Origin: Haloarcula halobia
Lineage (GTDB): Archaea > Halobacteriota > Halobacteria > Halobacteriales > Haloarculaceae
Direction: 5' to 3'
Assembly: GCF_029338255.1 (NCBI RefSeq)
Contig: NZ_CP119788.1
Location: forward strand, 62,001 to 126,000
Length of the DNA: 64,000 bases
In this document: piece after piece, positions 19,133 through 25,962 of the stretch
Layout of the letters: the number at the start of each line of letters is the position of its first letter
Numbering within the stretch: position 1 is the stretch's first letter
Program-made: the position numbers and the translations under genes
Notes under the pieces: generated by a model
Seen by the model: the letters and a program-made list of their open reading frames with translations, nothing else
Database searches by the model: none
What the model was told of the DNA's origin: nothing

Positions 19133-19254
19133 GCGATCCGCTGGAACTCGTTGCCGACGTCATCCGGACCGCCCAGCTTGGCGAGATCGCCCAGCCCTAC
19201 TGCAGTAAGTCCGACTTCAATTTGAAATCACTGACACCTGCACGCGATGGCTAA
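19129..19254 (+). CDS. Short ORF in the effector slot, probably a truncated gene
   Basis: 41 codons starting with ATGA overlap on the Cas5-like stop: MSDPLELVADVIRTAQLGEI followed by AQPYCSKSDF. The start looks like a normal helical N-terminus, but the frame stops abruptly. In related loci this slot is occupied by a nuclease gene (from memory), so this may be the 5' stub left after deletion. It overlaps the next small ORF by eight bases. Confidence 0.4.
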   Translation: MSDPLELVADVIRTAQLGEIAQPYCSKSDFNLKSLTPARDG

Positions 19255-19432
19255 CTCGATCAGTGCCACGGCTACTGTGACTCTTGAAGCGATCCCCCAG
19301 TCCCAGACACCGATCGGATCGTGGCCGAACCAAGATACTGCCAAACACGACAATATGCGACCGAACGCACCCATCGAAATCGACGTATCGTACGCACCAC
19401 CCACCAACGAGCAGGGTGGTGAGAACCCATGA
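19247..19432 (+). CDS. Short coupled ORF before the HNH gene
   Basis: 61 codons, Thr/Pro/Ser-rich (MANSISATATVTLEAIPQSQ), no recognised domain. Its stop overlaps the HNH start by four bases (ATGA), as do other genes of the operon, so it is probably translated. It could be the remaining C-terminal part of the truncated gene beginning at 19129, or an independent small protein. Confidence 0.4.
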   Translation: MANSISATATVTLEAIPQSQTPIGSWPNQDTAKHDNMRPNAPIEIDVSYAPPTNEQGGENP

Positions 19433-20211
19433 CGGACCACCGCGGCTCCGACGAACCAGTCGATCAGGAGACCCGCGACCAGGCGCTCTCCCGGGATGAC
19501 TACAGCTGCCAATTCTGTGGCGTAGTGGGGCCGACGCGTGGCGGCTATGCCCGCCTCGAGATCCACCACAAAGAGCGCAATCCCGACCACATGGAGGAAC
19601 ACGACCTGAAGAATCTGGTGACGCTGTGCCGGCACTGCCACGGCTGGTTCCACCGGAAGCCCACGGCCGACGATGTCGAGACCGAGCTCCTGCCTGCCGA
19701 CCGGCCAGAACTGCTCCCGCAGGATTTCGAGATCCTGGGCTATCTCGAACAGGATGGCCCCGCCTCGACCAGCGAGATAGCAGAGGCTGTCAGTATCGAG
19801 CAGTCCGAGATGACTATCCGCGAGCGGTTGTCGGTGCTTATGGGCCTAGATAGTCTCGTCGACGAACGCGAGACCCAGATCGTCGACAAGGATGTCGACA
19901 CTGGCGAGTGGGGGCTGCCCGACGATATCGATGTCTCGGCACGCGGCCGCGTCCCGGAGAACACGCGGACGCTACTGAAGCGTGCCGAAGACGAGCTGAT
20001 CCGGCTGGCGATCGCTGCCGGGTACAACCGGCCGACGGTAGCCGACGTCTACGATGTCGGCTACCGGACGACCTGGCGCAAGGAACGCCGTGCGCATGCC
20101 TTCCAGCTGCCGCTGACGAAGCTGTATAGGCAGGCAGACGGCGAGCAGACGGAGGTCACGGCGGACGCTGCCGACCGCGAGTCAGAGCACCGACTCCACC
20201 TCGGTAAGTAA
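19429..20211 (+). CDS. HNH endonuclease with C-terminal winged-helix region
   Basis: 260 residues. The HNH domain has C27xxC30, LEIHHKERN with His45/His46, DLKNLVTLC with Asn62, then C67xxCH with Cys67, Cys70 and His71: all zinc ligands and catalytic residues of an HNH nuclease are present. Residues ~90-150 (LGYLEQDGPASTSEIAEAVS...) form a winged-helix-like segment, and the C-terminal ~80 residues contain another helical DNA-binding-like part (DVYDVGYRTTWRKERRAHAF). As last gene of the coupled operon it is the best candidate for the cleaving subunit of the RAMP complex. Confidence 0.82.
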   Translation: MTDHRGSDEPVDQETRDQALSRDDYSCQFCGVVGPTRGGYARLEIHHKERNPDHMEEHDLKNLVTLCRHCHGWFHRKPTADDVETELLPADRPELLPQDFEILGYLEQDGPASTSEIAEAVSIEQSEMTIRERLSVLMGLDSLVDERETQIVDKDVDTGEWGLPDDIDVSARGRVPENTRTLLKRAEDELIRLAIAAGYNRPTVADVYDVGYRTTWRKERRAHAFQLPLTKLYRQADGEQTEVTADAADRESEHRLHLGK

Positions 20212-20674
20212 CGGCCTGCCTTCCCCCATCTGCTGACAGTGGGGGGCAGTGGCTGACAGAAGCGGTGCAGACGGTCGGCGCGTATGCGAATCGAGTATCT
20301 GGGGTCCGATTGCCAGCTGCCGGAGAAGTGGGGACGGCAATGGGACGGAGCTGTCTGTGACACGGATTTACGCTCAGAATCCAAGGGTGGAGCAGCCACA
20401 CTCCCTCACGGCCGCCTCTCGTGGGCACAGCGTCACTGAGCGACGTACGCCGTGCGCATCGATTACTGCGACAACGTTGATCGCTTCAAGCCGTCTCAGA
20501 CGCTGCTGGCCGTCGACTGCAGACCCATCGAGTGCTACTTGTCGGAAAACCACCGACGTCAGGTAAAAAGCACGAACAGGTATTCATTTTTTGTACCATT
20601 ATACAGTAAGAAAAATCCCACATTGGTTACCAAATTAGCATAATTTATTTACATATGGATGAGAATACACGGTT
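20212..20674 (+). other. Region after the HNH gene with a possible decayed ORF
   Basis: No clear gene. A plus-strand frame at 20452-20643 encodes segments YCDNVDRFKPSQTLLAVDCR and PIECYLSENHRRQV that look protein-like, but it lacks a proper start region and runs into AT-rich DNA, so it may be a fragment. The end (20575-20660) is AT-rich and contains TATA-like sequence (ATAATTTATTTACATATG) positioned as promoter for the gene at 20675. Confidence 0.35.
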
Positions 20675-20878
20675 ATGGTCCATCAGTTCGATGACGACGT
20701 CGATGATGATGATGAATCGGTCCGTGGCCCAGTCAATTCATCAGGAGATCATGCTGATAGCTTAGCTCCCAGCGACGCGAACCATAATACCGATGAGACG
20801 TCATTTGATAAACTGTACCGGAACCAAGATAGCGGGGAGAAGTCAGCTCATGACAAATACCGAAGTGACTCCAACTGA
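20675..20878 (+). CDS. Small acidic protein
   Basis: 67 residues, strongly acidic and Asp/Ser/Asn-rich (FDDDVDDDDESVRG), with no predicted fold. It begins about 25 bases after a TATA-like stretch and ends 13 bases before the transposase-like gene on the same strand. That suggests the first gene of a short operon. Function unknown. Confidence 0.4.
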   Translation: MVHQFDDDVDDDDESVRGPVNSSGDHADSLAPSDANHNTDETSFDKLYRNQDSGEKSAHDKYRSDSN

Positions 20879-20891
20879 CAGCCAGTAGTGT

Positions 20892-22592
20892 ATGAGTGAT
20901 GACTCTGAGGAAGTCCCGCTATTTGAGCACCCTGTCGACGATGTGGCAGAGCTGGAACATGAACGCGCTATTGCACTCTCGTTTCGAGAGAAGAATCTGA
21001 CTGAGAAGTCATTAGGTGAAAAAACGAAATCGACGGAATCGGCAGAACTCGTCGACGAGTTTGTTGACTACGTGTTTGACAAAGTAGAGCACCCTGGACT
21101 GGACGCAGAATATGTGACGTACAAAGAGTTCGACCTCGATCGGAAGTACGTAAACGCGTTGGTGTTGCGGAATGCACACGGTATTACGTTCGAAGATTTG
21201 CGCGAATATTTATATAACAATCCAACGGTCGCCGAACGGATCGGCTTTGACACCGATGAGAGTTTTCCGACTGCGAATACGATAAATCAGAAGGCCATCG
21301 AGCTTGGAAATCAGCAACTCCCTGGATCCCCAACCGAGACGTACCGGGATCTCCTTGAGGACGTCGCCAAGCGTCTTGTCTGGGGTGCAGTTCGATTCGG
21401 AGTTGTACTCCCAGAACGGACGATCGATAACTACGATATCAAACTCTCTTACGACGAGGCGCTCGCACAGGTGACGCGTGAGACTGAGCGCACTGGATTG
21501 CACACTACCATACGATATCTGCTCGATAGGACGGGATCCCATTTCGCATTCAACCGAGCATCGAATGCATCCCAGGATTTCGAGAGATATATCGCTCTTT
21601 TCGCTCGGGCTGTTGACGGCGACGAGGGGCTCAGTGAAGCATGGAAAAGCTATCCGAGTAATGTCGATTTAGACGGCCCGACTAATTATTATCAAAACGT
21701 CGGGAAATATCCCGAACAAGAAGACCGATTTCAGAATGACTTACAATCGATCGGGGGTCAATTCGATAAGGCACTGTTTGACATGCTAAAACTAGTCGGA
21801 GAGCTTGACATTTTCGACGACGGCGTTACTGTCGCCCAAGATCCAACCCTTGTGAAGAGTGCCCTCGCGGACTCTGATTTAACGATCGGTTCCGGCAATA
21901 CACAAGTGTGGTATTTTCCGATCTCTGCGGGTGTTGAGAATCAGTTCCGTTTGGTCTGGAACATCGATCTGTTCGATTCGAAAGACCAAACGCATGATAA
22001 ATTCAAAGACAGATTAGAGATTATAGACAAAATCATTGGTGTGAAGAATCTCTGCCTCGATGGCGAATACGATTCGGAACGAGTTATAGAGGCATGCGAG
22101 GATATTGTTTCCGAAAACTGGCTAATCGGGACAGGGTATAACCCTGAACGCGAAGATTTTCCCTCAGAAGAAGAGCTGCCAAATCCAGGGGATTCAACGA
22201 TCTGGGGTGGGGTAAGTGTCGGAGATAAAGACGTCAATTTGGTAGCAGTACACCGATACGGCGAGGACTCGCAAGTGCAATTGTTTTTCACGAATATCGA
22301 GGAAGACGGTATGGATACAGATGAGATTTTGGCGCTCCATAATCGGAGACAGGCAATTGAGACAACGATACAAGAAGTGAAGGAACTCAGACCGGAGATA
22401 GGAGTTGAGGATCGAGATCACCAGTTCTTTTCGATGTGTATGGCTACGTATTTGTACAATATATACATGCTGACAAAGATACTCTATACCCCAAAGTATC
22501 AATTAGGGTTGACTCCGAATAAGTCGGAGATCTTGACGGGTGTGATAGAGGTCTGTGCTGGCGACTACCCGAAGTACAACGATGGAGTGTAA
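20892..22592 (+). CDS. DDE-transposase-like protein (IS4-like haloarchaeal group)
   Basis: 566 residues. The architecture parallels the transposase at 31813: an acidic N-terminus, a helical domain with FEDLREYLYNNPTVAERIGF, then a DDE core. Candidate catalytic residues are Asp in TVAQDPTLVK, Asp in LCLDGEYDSERVIE, and Glu in NRRQAIETTIQEVKEL, the same order as DITYVAYYG, YADAEFDG and RWGIENSYKSI in the other copy. The C-terminus CMATYLYNIYMLTKILY matches the membrane-like tail of these transposases. No inverted repeats are obvious and it is followed eight bases later by another gene, unlike a simple insertion sequence. Confidence 0.6.
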   Translation: MSDDSEEVPLFEHPVDDVAELEHERAIALSFREKNLTEKSLGEKTKSTESAELVDEFVDYVFDKVEHPGLDAEYVTYKEFDLDRKYVNALVLRNAHGITFEDLREYLYNNPTVAERIGFDTDESFPTANTINQKAIELGNQQLPGSPTETYRDLLEDVAKRLVWGAVRFGVVLPERTIDNYDIKLSYDEALAQVTRETERTGLHTTIRYLLDRTGSHFAFNRASNASQDFERYIALFARAVDGDEGLSEAWKSYPSNVDLDGPTNYYQNVGKYPEQEDRFQNDLQSIGGQFDKALFDMLKLVGELDIFDDGVTVAQDPTLVKSALADSDLTIGSGNTQVWYFPISAGVENQFRLVWNIDLFDSKDQTHDKFKDRLEIIDKIIGVKNLCLDGEYDSERVIEACEDIVSENWLIGTGYNPEREDFPSEEELPNPGDSTIWGGVSVGDKDVNLVAVHRYGEDSQVQLFFTNIEEDGMDTDEILALHNRRQAIETTIQEVKELRPEIGVEDRDHQFFSMCMATYLYNIYMLTKILYTPKYQLGLTPNKSEILTGVIEVCAGDYPKYNDGV

Positions 22593-22600
22593 ACCACGTA

Positions 22601-23284
22601 ATGCCGAGTACAGATTCACGATGGACAGGACAAGTTTCCGTTGCACATCTCGCCCAGCTCAGTGAAGCTACGGCTACTATCCGAGACGTAGTCCATTTTG
22701 TTGCGAAACGAGATGAAGTGATTTTAGCCACGCGAAGTGACAATGATAGATGCTGCGTATTTGGCTCCACACCGGTAGTTGACGCGAATGAAACCGGGGA
22801 CACCACGGATGGAGATGTAGGGAAGAAAATAATGGTCGATGCCAGAGCCCTCGCGGATTATTTCAAGTCCTTTGAGACGGACGTGTGTGAGCTTACAGTT
22901 ACATCGAGAGCGGACGGGACTGGCGGAACAATAACCATCTCTGACCGATCGCTGACGTTCAACATCTCGTTTTCCGACAGGAGACGGTGGGAGGGGACTT
23001 TCCATGAACCTGAGTTTCAGGCTGATTTAGAGGGTACTGCGACGAAACTTGTATCTGGGTTAGATTTGTTGTCGAAAATTGACTCGGGATACTCTGAGCA
23101 TGTATTGTTGGGTGTGAGTGACCAAGTGATGTGCGCATACGCGTGGAGTGAGTTGACCGAGATGGTATTCGGAGTCCAGCCCTCGGAAGTTCATACTTGC
23201 TCAGGTCCATTCCACTCTATCTACCCCCACGATGTCTTGCGGGAAAGTCTCAGCATATTTGAGCTGACTCATCAATCCGTATGA
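22601..23284 (+). CDS. Possible DNA sliding-clamp-like (PCNA-fold) protein
   Basis: 227 residues. The pattern of strands resembles a PCNA first domain: QVSVAHLAQLSEATATIRDV, then FVAKRDEVILATRSDND, then KIMVDARALADYFKSF and ELTVTSR...TITISDRSLTFNISF. A second domain start appears as TKLVSGLDLLSKIDSGYSEH with VLLGVSD, and FHSIYPHDVLRESLSIF matches the second-domain strand and helix. The chain is shorter than PCNA by about 20 residues at the end. It is eight bases behind the transposase-like gene and overlaps the next ORF. The clamp call is inference from fold-like pattern only. Confidence 0.4.
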   Translation: MPSTDSRWTGQVSVAHLAQLSEATATIRDVVHFVAKRDEVILATRSDNDRCCVFGSTPVVDANETGDTTDGDVGKKIMVDARALADYFKSFETDVCELTVTSRADGTGGTITISDRSLTFNISFSDRRRWEGTFHEPEFQADLEGTATKLVSGLDLLSKIDSGYSEHVLLGVSDQVMCAYAWSELTEMVFGVQPSEVHTCSGPFHSIYPHDVLRESLSIFELTHQSV

Positions 23285-23496
23285 GACTCACACCTGCGAA
23301 AAATCCCAGCAATTGGGCCGTCGGCGGGCAAGCAAAATTTGCGTCTGTAGACACTGAATATGATCTAACACTCTGGTTGAAACCAAAATACAAACCCAAT
23401 GCTGACAAACCGCCTGCCCTTGGTCAAAAATTGTTATCAACCTTCAGAGATCAAGACCAAATCGCTCAATCAGATCTTACGTGGTTGCCTTGCTGA
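23281..23496 (+). CDS. Small protein coupled to the clamp-like gene
   Basis: 71 residues, starting with ATGA overlap on the preceding stop. Contains KFASVDTEYDLTLWLKPKYK, weakly strand-like. No family recognised. The coupling suggests it is the last gene of the operon 20675-23496; it could also be the displaced C-terminal end of the clamp-like protein. Confidence 0.4.
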   Translation: MRLTPAKNPSNWAVGGQAKFASVDTEYDLTLWLKPKYKPNADKPPALGQKLLSTFRDQDQIAQSDLTWLPC

Positions 23497-23782
23497 CGGC
23501 CATACATGCCAGCCACCAGTTTAGTGATCATCAGTTTCCGAGTACAATGTTATAGCCAAATATAATTGACTTTTTGATATATACAGAATCCAGCCAAACT
23601 TATTTCGGCCCATTAGGACTTGTGAGGGATTTTGCAAGCTTAGACCACATGACCCGGAGTTTTCAAAACTCAATATGAGTGGACAGCTCACCAATTTTGC
23701 ATAGATAGTGTGTTCAAGCGCTCTTGACGTAGTTTAGTTCACTTACAGAATATGGATAAAATTAGCGATTGGGGCCCCTCAT

Positions 23783-23829
23783 TCTTACCAAACATAGAAG
23801 GTGAAGAGTAGTCAAAAAGTTTGGTAAGA
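23783..23829. repeat. Inverted repeat TCTTACCAAAC (left border of origin 2 unit)
   Basis: Arms TCTTACCAAAC (23783-23793) and GTTTGGTAAGA (23819-23829) are perfect over 11 bp with a 25-base spacer. The same element borders the other side of origin 2 at 25975-26020. Confidence 0.75.
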
Positions 23830-23880
23830 CCCTGATTACACGCACTTTGCTTAGTTTCCAGAGCGCGAGAACGGTCACTA

Positions 23881-23901
23881 CCCTCCACCGTTTCCGGAGC
23901 T
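23881..23901 (-). repeat. Origin recognition box downstream of orc copy 2
   Basis: Reads as the reverse complement of AGCTCCGGAAACGGTGGAGG, matching the box at 25840-25860. It lies 50 bases beyond the orc stop codon, mirroring the single downstream box of origin 1. Confidence 0.8.
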
Positions 23902-23950
23902 TTCTGTGACTTAGAAAGGCACCTCTCTTTAGAATCGTAGTAGTCCGCAC

Positions 23951-25207
23951 TCAGTAGTCGGAAATATCTGACTGGAGAAGGTTGTTATCGTCGGCCGTCG
24001 ACTTGATGATGTTCGCAAGTTCCTCGAAGCGGGTCGTCGAGAGTAGGACTTCCAGCACAGATTTCAGTGGAACGTCAAGCTCGTACTCGTGATACCGACC
24101 AGCCGAGAGTCCCTCGTTTCGTTCATAGACGCTAATGAGCCCGAGCATATTCATATCCGAGAGGTGGTCGCGAACACGGCGCTCGCTCACGCTGTCAGCC
24201 TCAAGCCGGTCGCAAATCTTCACGTATCGTTCGTATAAATCGCGAGAGCGAACCGGAACATCGTCAAGGGCTTGATGATACGCAAGCGCACAGAGGACAG
24301 CGTGTCCCTGTGTCGTGAGTTCCTGCATCCCCTCGTAGAGTTGGTTCTTCTCGAGTTCGTCTTGAGCGTCCCGGACGTGTTCCTCAGTCATGGTGTCAGA
24401 ATCGGCAGATTGCGCGAGTTCGCCGGCTTCACGAAGCAGCCGGATTGCCTGTCGAGCAGATCCCGTGTCCTGAGCAGCAAATGCTGCACAGAGTGGGACG
24501 ACATCATCCGTTAAGACACCATCGTGGAACGCCTTCTCGGCGCGGGGGTTGAGAATCGAGCGCAGTTGATTCGCGTCGTACGGTGGAAAGAGGATCTCTT
24601 TTTCGGCGAGCGTGTCCTTGACCTTCGGCGAGAGGTTGTCTCGGAACTGAAAATCATTGCTGATGCCAACGATTACTGGGCGTACGTCGTCGACGTAGCC
24701 ATTCGACCGTGCTCGAGGAAGACCGTAGAGGATGTCGTCAGAGTGGCCGATGTTATCGATCTCGTCGAGGACAATCACGACTGTGCCACCAAGCGCGTCG
24801 AGTTCCTCATAGAGGATATCGAAAACCCGCTGCTGAGAGTAGCCAGTGGTGCTGATGCGGTCCTTGTCTTGGCTTTCACGGAGTTCGTTGACGAGAGCAA
24901 CGGCGACCTGGTATGACGAAGAGAGATTCTCGCAGCTGACCCAAACGGTCGAGAGATCGACATCATCGTACTCAACAGCGTCGTTCTCGAGATGGGACAA
25001 CATAAATTTCGTCGCGACGGTCTTCCCCGTTCCTGTCTTACCGTACAGAAAGATGTTGGACGTCGGGCGGTTATCGATAATCGGCTGAAGGGCTCGCTGA
25101 TATTTTTCGAGTTCCTCGTCCCGTTCACGAATATCCTCGGGTTCATAGGAGTCATCAAGGGGCTCTGCATCAGCGAACACCTGATGGTCTCGTTGGAACA
25201 TCCCCAT
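23951..25207 (-). CDS. orc1/cdc6: Orc1/Cdc6 family replication initiator (copy 2)
   Basis: 418 residues from the ATG at 25207 (25201 also possible; the longer frame to 25243 would enter an origin box). Walker A GKTGTGKT (56-63), Walker B VIVLDEIDN (~150), sensor-1 region VIVGISNDFQFRDNL, and a C-terminal winged helix (HLSDMNMLGLISVYERNEG). It has the same domain order as copy 1 but clearly diverged, and a different cognate box. It would bind the boxes at 25332-25962 and load MCM. Strong call. Confidence 0.95.
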   Translation of the reverse strand: MGMFQRDHQVFADAEPLDDSYEPEDIRERDEELEKYQRALQPIIDNRPTSNIFLYGKTGTGKTVATKFMLSHLENDAVEYDDVDLSTVWVSCENLSSSYQVAVALVNELRESQDKDRISTTGYSQQRVFDILYEELDALGGTVVIVLDEIDNIGHSDDILYGLPRARSNGYVDDVRPVIVGISNDFQFRDNLSPKVKDTLAEKEILFPPYDANQLRSILNPRAEKAFHDGVLTDDVVPLCAAFAAQDTGSARQAIRLLREAGELAQSADSDTMTEEHVRDAQDELEKNQLYEGMQELTTQGHAVLCALAYHQALDDVPVRSRDLYERYVKICDRLEADSVSERRVRDHLSDMNMLGLISVYERNEGLSAGRYHEYELDVPLKSVLEVLLSTTRFEELANIIKSTADDNNLLQSDISDY

Positions 25208-25235
25208 GATAGACCGCCACACAGGACGATATGAT

Positions 25236-25962
25236 AAAACCACCGCTTCCTTAGCTTCCGAAGCGTCCTAAGCTCGTGGGTACATAAAGAATACACACAC
25301 CAGTGGTTCCGAAGCCACAGTTCTTTATAACCCCCTCTCACTCCACTGTTTCCGAAGCTATGCGAAAGACAGCTCATCACGCATTCCGAAAGGGAACTAA
25401 TATTCACCAAAGAATTAAGACAATAACACCTGAACCATCACCGTACTAGCGCGAAAAATACGTGATAGAAAATAAATATGTCTAGTGAGAAAGGACAAAA
25501 CCTATCTGAAAAACTGATCTTAGTTGATTGCCGGTGTGTCTTTCACTGATCCCTTTCCTTCTCTCATAGATAGCTTCGGAAATGGTGGAGTGAGGGTTTG
25601 TGAAATCTGGTCTCAGGAAAAGCTCCGGAAACAGTGGAGGGTCATACTCACATCCATCCAGCTCCAAGCTCGCGTTCATCGTTTCAGCATCGAACTGGCC
25701 TGACTCAATATCGAGATTTCAGTTCGTCTACGCCTTCAGAAGCTTCTCTAGACTAGTACTGTCCATGCGTGTCGCTCGTCTCGACCTACCTAGCACAAAG
25801 CTCCGGAAGTGGTGGAGGGGGTTCATTATCTCGCACAATAGCTCCGGAAACGGTGGAGGGTTGAATCCCCTTCCATATCCAGCTCTTCCGATGCTACTGA
25901 TACCCTGCTAATCTCTTGTTTACGTCGTCCTTACCGGGGATTGCTCCGGAAAAGCTGGAGGG
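25236..25962. repeat. Replication origin 2: origin recognition boxes and AT-rich unwinding region
   Basis: Consensus AGCTCCGGAAACGGTGGAGG. Forward copies at 25572-25596 (variant with CTTCGG), 25621-25641, 25799-25820, 25840-25860 and 25942-25962. A reversed copy is at 25332-25359, and weaker reversed copies are near 25300-25316 and 25238-25265. Between the reversed and forward sets (25385-25560) the DNA is AT-rich (GAAAATAAATATG), a good unwinding-element candidate. A further reversed box is at 23881. The layout is that of haloarchaeal Orc-dependent origins. Confidence 0.88.

Follow-up and report, generated by a model that had tools for sequence, protein, structure and literature searches.

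Many transposases touch the sliding clamp of their host, and the reason for this is an open question. PCNA is such a clamp, a ring protein that slides on DNA under replication. The host clamp is used by TnsE of Tn7, by TnpA of IS200/IS605 and by IS1634 (PMC4549789, PMC5371812). In the last case a PIP motif lets a peptide of the Methanosarcina transposase bind to archaeal PCNA (PMC4549789), and IS1634 is related to ISH3 and IS4 (PMC2266710). The haloarchaeal locus described here resembles IS1634 (PMC4549789), which works with a clamp in archaea too, in that a DDE transposase of the IS4/ISH3/IS701 neighbourhood is tied to a sliding clamp, the tie being predicted here from the genes. The clamp of IS1634, a beta clamp or PCNA, is that of the host, reached via a PIP-like motif, whereas the haloarchaeal pair encodes an adjacent clamp and the PIP motif is not seen. 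Tn7 TnsE acting with the beta clamp (PMC5371812) is a second parallel, as it provides an accessory contact that directs transposition to replicating DNA, a role that is only proposed for the haloarchaeal pair. TnsE, however, is not a clamp and belongs to a multi-gene system with defined ends, while the haloarchaeal accessory gene codes for a clamp homologue.

The ISH3/IS4 insertion sequences (PMC2266710) share with the haloarchaeal enzymes the DDE residues and a YREK-type signature, and ISH3 is the best named profile match. The paired transposases nevertheless score far under the ISH3 cut-off, are ~200-300 aa longer, have a clamp partner and are present in single copy, with inverted repeats not found. 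The clamp family compares with archaeal PCNA (Haloferax volcanii 3hi8) through full-length homology, a size of ~250 aa and the presence of both PCNA domains; it differs in being very diverged, in having lost the C-terminal [A/S]PR motif and in being an addition to the usual chromosomal PCNA, encoded alongside a transposase. Archaeal PCNA copies can derive from mobile elements (reviewed in PMC8371274). Extra PCNAs on archaeal mobile elements have in common with the haloarchaeal clamps that a second PCNA is found on accessory DNA, but those sampled retain [A/S]PR and score as ordinary PCNAs. A transposase accompanied by its own clamp gene was not found in the open-access literature searched.

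The locus and its plasmid

The window, which is the whole stretch of 64,000 nucleotides that was analysed, corresponds to C2:62001-126000. It belongs to a plasmid of a haloarchaeon, which makes up contig C2 (129,378 bp) of the two-contig genome G000. The plasmid is circular with a true size of ~75.5 kb: C2:1-53787 repeats 75549-129377 (53.8 kb, 99.74% identity), and this redundant first 53.8 kb features many small indel errors and broken genes. Copy counts from the contig are misleading because of the redundant end. The operon occurs twice in the assembly; a real duplication was considered and ruled out, C2 having been assembled past the start of the circle.

The locus is composed of four ORFs of the + strand (Table 1) spaced by 13, 8 and -4 bases, and both the ORFs and the gaps agree exactly with those of an earlier reading of the DNA (the sequence-only reading). 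That reading took the four genes as a unit, of which only the two middle genes are conserved elsewhere. The acidic ORF and the 71-aa ORF have no counterpart at the 13 other pair loci and, on this comparison, are probably not partners of the pair. Both were also tried as split-off ends of their neighbours, and rejected: as a transposase end the acidic ORF ranked 3 of 1001 shuffles by HMM and gave no pairwise match under 5%, while as a clamp end the 71-aa ORF gave a best pairwise result of 11/1000 among 17 tries, which is not significant. The four ORFs lie in a G+C-poor block whose composition is consistent with a separate acquisition of the transposase-clamp pair.

Table 1. Features of the transposase-clamp locus (positions in the window).
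Feature	Position	Strand	Remarks
Acidic ORF, 67 aa	20675..20878	+	Homologue not found; sits where the transposase of relatives has an N-terminal extension
DDE transposase-like recombinase, 566 aa	20892..22592	+	Divergent family near ISH3/IS4/IS1380; D317, D390, E490, R486, K497
Candidate sliding-clamp protein, PCNA-like and highly diverged, 227 aa	22601..23284	+	Aligns with PCNA, stops before the last strands
71-aa ORF	23281..23496	+	Overlaps the clamp stop codon (ATGA); homologue not found; at the place of the missing clamp C-terminus
G+C-poor block	20500..23950		G+C 41-52% versus 59-65% just upstream

Three genes at window:16277-19132 (G+C 66%) have faint Csm3/Cmr3/RAMP similarity (PADLOC Cmr3 E=9e-6, Csm3 E=0.02) and may form a diverged type III-like module. 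A protein with HNH and winged-helix domains adjoins the pair in two genomes (window:19429-20211; L063:9446-10315), on strands and sides that differ. The same plasmid carries a second, distant DDE transposase (window:31813-33462, - strand), which is closest to ISH3 (116 bits).

Conservation of the pair and features of its transposase

Relatives of the window transposase were found by a six-frame search of 392 haloarchaeal genomes, all of one order. They are present in 49 of these genomes, the best with 26% identity over the full length, and eight of them are followed at once by a same-strand gene, unannotated, for a protein of 245-266 aa. Nine transposases and nine clamps served to build profiles A2 and A1, respectively. 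Across the 392 genomes the A2 search places 14 best transposase loci at 393-867 bits, the next tier lying at ~360 bits and below. The A1 search yields 12 best clamp matches at 160-322 bits, all adjoining such a transposase, with ordinary PCNAs at no more than 146 bits; at the remaining two loci (G038, G109) the clamp is also present on inspection. A ~250-aa clamp is thus encoded directly downstream and on the same strand of each of the 14 transposases scoring above 390 bits, the one of the window included. The two genes mostly overlap or are spaced by 8 bases or fewer (largest gap ~94 bases), and a single pair is found per genome. Five of the 14 pairs (G023, G063, G160, G038, G109) are external to the profiles, and in three of the five the clamp was picked up independently by the clamp profile. 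The distances between transposases and those between clamps are correlated (Mantel r=0.94, p=0.0001), whether the window is included or left out, and therefore the pair is inherited as a unit, the clamp not having been acquired repeatedly.

The transposase-clamp pairing in haloarchaea is near certain. It bears out the proposal of the sequence-only reading that a DDE transposase is joined here to a PCNA-like clamp, and also its remark that partners of this kind are missing from ordinary insertion sequences, the clamp being conserved beside every near relative. The opposite pattern considered in that reading, in which kindred transposase genes would always stand by themselves between inverted repeats, does not describe the near relatives; a sister clade of nine transposases is without clamp. 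Outside haloarchaea, no clamp-paired match of the top tier was found in a 325-genome sample of the phylum. Sequence searches of plasmid, phage, viral and genome-contig collections gave no match to the window transposase nor to the window clamp, for which profiles were needed, and scans of viral sequences did not yield relatives of the clamp that could be used.

The similarity of the window transposase to known families is low. It matches Pfam DDE_Tnp_1 with E=1.8e-4 and NCBIfam ISH3 with E=0.001 (18.3 bits), a model to which its relatives score 47-52 bits and whose curated cut-off of 225 is above all of these values; the ISH3 and IS4 models are the nearest named profiles. The catalytic triad that had been noticed as preserved is real. 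It is formed by D317 (VAQD), D390 (LDGEYD) and E490 (AIETT), and the D, D and E are invariant in the 14 clamp-paired transposases, window included, despite an overall identity of only ~20%. In the YREK surroundings R486 is found in 14/14 of these proteins, K497 in 13/14 and the Y in 12/14 (H in the window, F in G109). The clamp-paired members of the transposase tree are spread over several deep lineages, and the branch leading to the window protein is very long. The clamp-less sister clade (L066:6115-8157, on the chromosome of the window's own genome, L052, L053, L056, L057, L060, L061, L064 and L065), whose nine proteins have 530-720 aa, is set off from the other transposases by a branch supported at 100/100. 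In this clade S or V takes the place of the K of YREK, homology between its copies stops at the stop codon, and no inverted repeats were found within 700 bp.

Kinship of the clamps with PCNA

The 13 partner clamps other than that of the window align to 20 haloarchaeal chromosomal PCNAs with E=1.2e-35 over 241 columns (hhalign), and their lineages taken singly match PCNA with E=5e-6 to 3e-41. When profile A1 is compared with the PDB, only PCNAs are among the matches listed, the best being Haloferax volcanii 3hi8 (E=3.3e-38). Two partner clamps pass the gathering score of Pfam PCNA_N, and the NF002222 sliding-clamp model matches L050 (E=2e-26) and L072 (E=3e-24), both under its cut-off. These profile comparisons identify the family unambiguously, in its 13 members besides the window, as full-length PCNA homologues. 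Partner clamps group apart from the chromosomal PCNAs in the clamp tree with moderate support (77/89). Additional haloarchaeal PCNA-like genes (L086:100-1101, L088:1-1101, L082, L087, L093) keep [A/S]PR and fall off the main chromosomal PCNA cluster; the extra PCNAs sampled have scores like those of ordinary PCNAs.

The C-terminal [A/S]PR of PCNA, which lies at the PIP pocket, is kept in 20/20 ordinary PCNAs and lost in 13/13 partner clamps. PIP-boxes (QxxhxxFF) are not enriched in the transposases, where 1 motif-like match was found among 24 sequences (14 of them clamp-paired) versus 2.9 expected. The loss of the motif in the clamps and the lack of PIP-box enrichment in the transposases are together in keeping with a private clamp contact, not a generic one. 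The simplest reading of these sequences is that the clamp serves the paired recombinase and would no longer serve general replication partners.

The 227-aa protein of the window taken alone has one relevant match, to the archaeal PCNA subfamily NF002222 (15.8 bits, E=0.0076). It scores 8.3 bits against an HMM of 33 PCNA/clamp sequences built without it, a value reached by none of 1585 shuffles and by none of 306 other ORFs of the window, while HMMs of PCNAs alone or of partner clamps alone do not separate it from chance. In its single-sequence AlphaFold2 model, which is unreliable (pLDDT 33), the helices and strands of the first half succeed one another much as in PCNA domain 1. Its own sequence, too diverged to serve as proof, gives modest support for a PCNA-like clamp; the assignment is convincing because a PCNA homologue occupies this position beside every near relative of the transposase. 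The protein is shorter than PCNA and ends before the last strands, hence before the [A/S]PR position. It is possibly truncated, and therefore the window copy of the pair could itself be degenerate.

Ends, proposed action and genomic neighbourhood

No inverted repeats above shuffled controls were found within 700 bp of 12 pairs and none that is convincing in window 19200-25500. No element terminus could be fixed from which to read target duplications, and none of these were found. The flanking stretches examined have no simple attL/attR pair of direct repeats. Within the best-sampled lineage, sequence is shared between a promoter-like block (AGGGTTTATCCGT...AGATAATTA), located ~45-60 bp ahead of the transposase start, and the stop codon of the clamp; outside these limits there is nothing in common. 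The sequence-only reading offered two alternatives, a domesticated transposase or a replication-linked mobile element, and the features of the pair point both ways. The single copy and the undetected inverted repeats are unlike an active insertion sequence; yet the catalytic residues are kept and integrative elements often carry the pair.

We propose that the pair is a two-gene haloarchaeal accessory module in which a YREK-type DDE recombinase is translationally coupled to a dedicated, diverged PCNA-type clamp that would guide it, a reading to which we give a probability of about one half. The clamp would form a ring of its own or a mixed one with host PCNA subunits, and this ring may be loaded on replicating or nicked DNA. 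Once loaded, it would hold or target the recombinase there, as an in-cis version of the contacts that TnsE makes with the beta clamp and the IS1634 transposase with PCNA, both of which involve the host clamp. Because the pair is single copy and has no inverted repeats, the DNA on which it acts is probably not a simple insertion sequence but a fork structure, or else the end of some larger integrative element or plasmid. The presence of the pair in at least 14 diverse genomes suggests that the ring helps the enzyme to act on DNA, in a manner for which the literature searched has no description. The odds are likewise about even that the two proteins make up a self-contained clamp-guided DDE system with a private or mixed PCNA ring, which would act on replicating DNA and thereby either mobilize an element or destroy invading DNA. 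Counting against the proposal are the undetected inverted repeats and the one copy per genome, which make it no more than possible that the pair moves DNA, and the sister clade of nine transposases that manages without clamp.

If true, a recombinase with a dedicated clamp would represent a class of recombinase machinery previously unknown. Co-inheritance of transposase and clamp would replace a transient contact by two genes that can be separated and tested, and would show what PCNA can become once freed from general replication. The pair could also yield a clamp-addressed recombinase for archaeal work.

A replication-sensing defence, in which the clamp recruits the DDE enzyme, as a nuclease, to the forks of invading viruses or plasmids, is rather unlikely. 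Such a role would suit a pair that is single copy, patchy over several families and without inverted repeats, and some of its neighbours point the same way. The pairs of G112, G136 and G023, together with two clamp-less relatives (L066 on the window's own chromosome; G287), are located in one common chromosomal hot spot (L050, L051, L055, L056, L066, L069) with a DraG-like gene, a 574-aa gene, a modification-dependent-type restriction enzyme (AspBHI_N+HNH) or AbiE toxin genes, the alternative content being transposases with or without clamp; the window pair is near the RAMP-like genes and the HNH protein. However, such hot spots collect mobile elements too and several pairs adjoin integrases instead, no PADLOC model matches the transposase or the clamp, and the close kin of the enzyme fold are transposases.

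Unlikely as well, and by a hair more so, is a replication/integration module in which the PCNA homologue replicates an element and the DDE enzyme resolves or integrates it, the two being linked as element functions and not by contact. This explanation draws on the described origin of archaeal PCNA copies from mobile elements (PMC8371274) and on the integrases found around the pair. Tyrosine recombinases adjoin it in L054, L062, L063, L072 and L073 (Pfam), with a homologous gene in L071, and tRNA-Glu(CTC) with an integrase is found in L062, L071, L072 and L073. In two loci (L071:8661-8677, L072:9551-9567) a 17-nt sequence identical to the anticodon arm of tRNA-Glu(CTC) follows the clamp at 170-205 bp and lies close to a gene for a tyrosine recombinase; a copy with 2 mismatches is found at L049:9592-9608. 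The tRNA anticodon arm is a kind of site used by archaeal integrases (PMC8371274), and the copy behind the clamp, which is inverted relative to the tRNA gene, may be an att site. In G360 the conserved chromosome stops at L054:4323 and is followed by the integrase and then by the pair. On the other side, the pair travels without polymerase, clamp loader or fixed third gene, its element contexts are very different, and direct cooperation of recombinase and clamp better fits their tight coupling and correlated distances. An ordinary insertion sequence found by chance upstream of a PCNA-like gene, for which the transposase homology could be quoted, is refuted by the 14/14 adjacency, the correlated distances and the absence of inverted repeats.

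Two further observations concern the surroundings of individual pairs. The break of genus synteny at L054:4323 is sharp and lies near the end of a protein gene, which places the integration site in or beside a protein-coding gene. The gene of a Ro60-like TROVE/vWA protein (L049:3917-5446), set within a tRNA cluster, precedes one of the pairs by a few genes.
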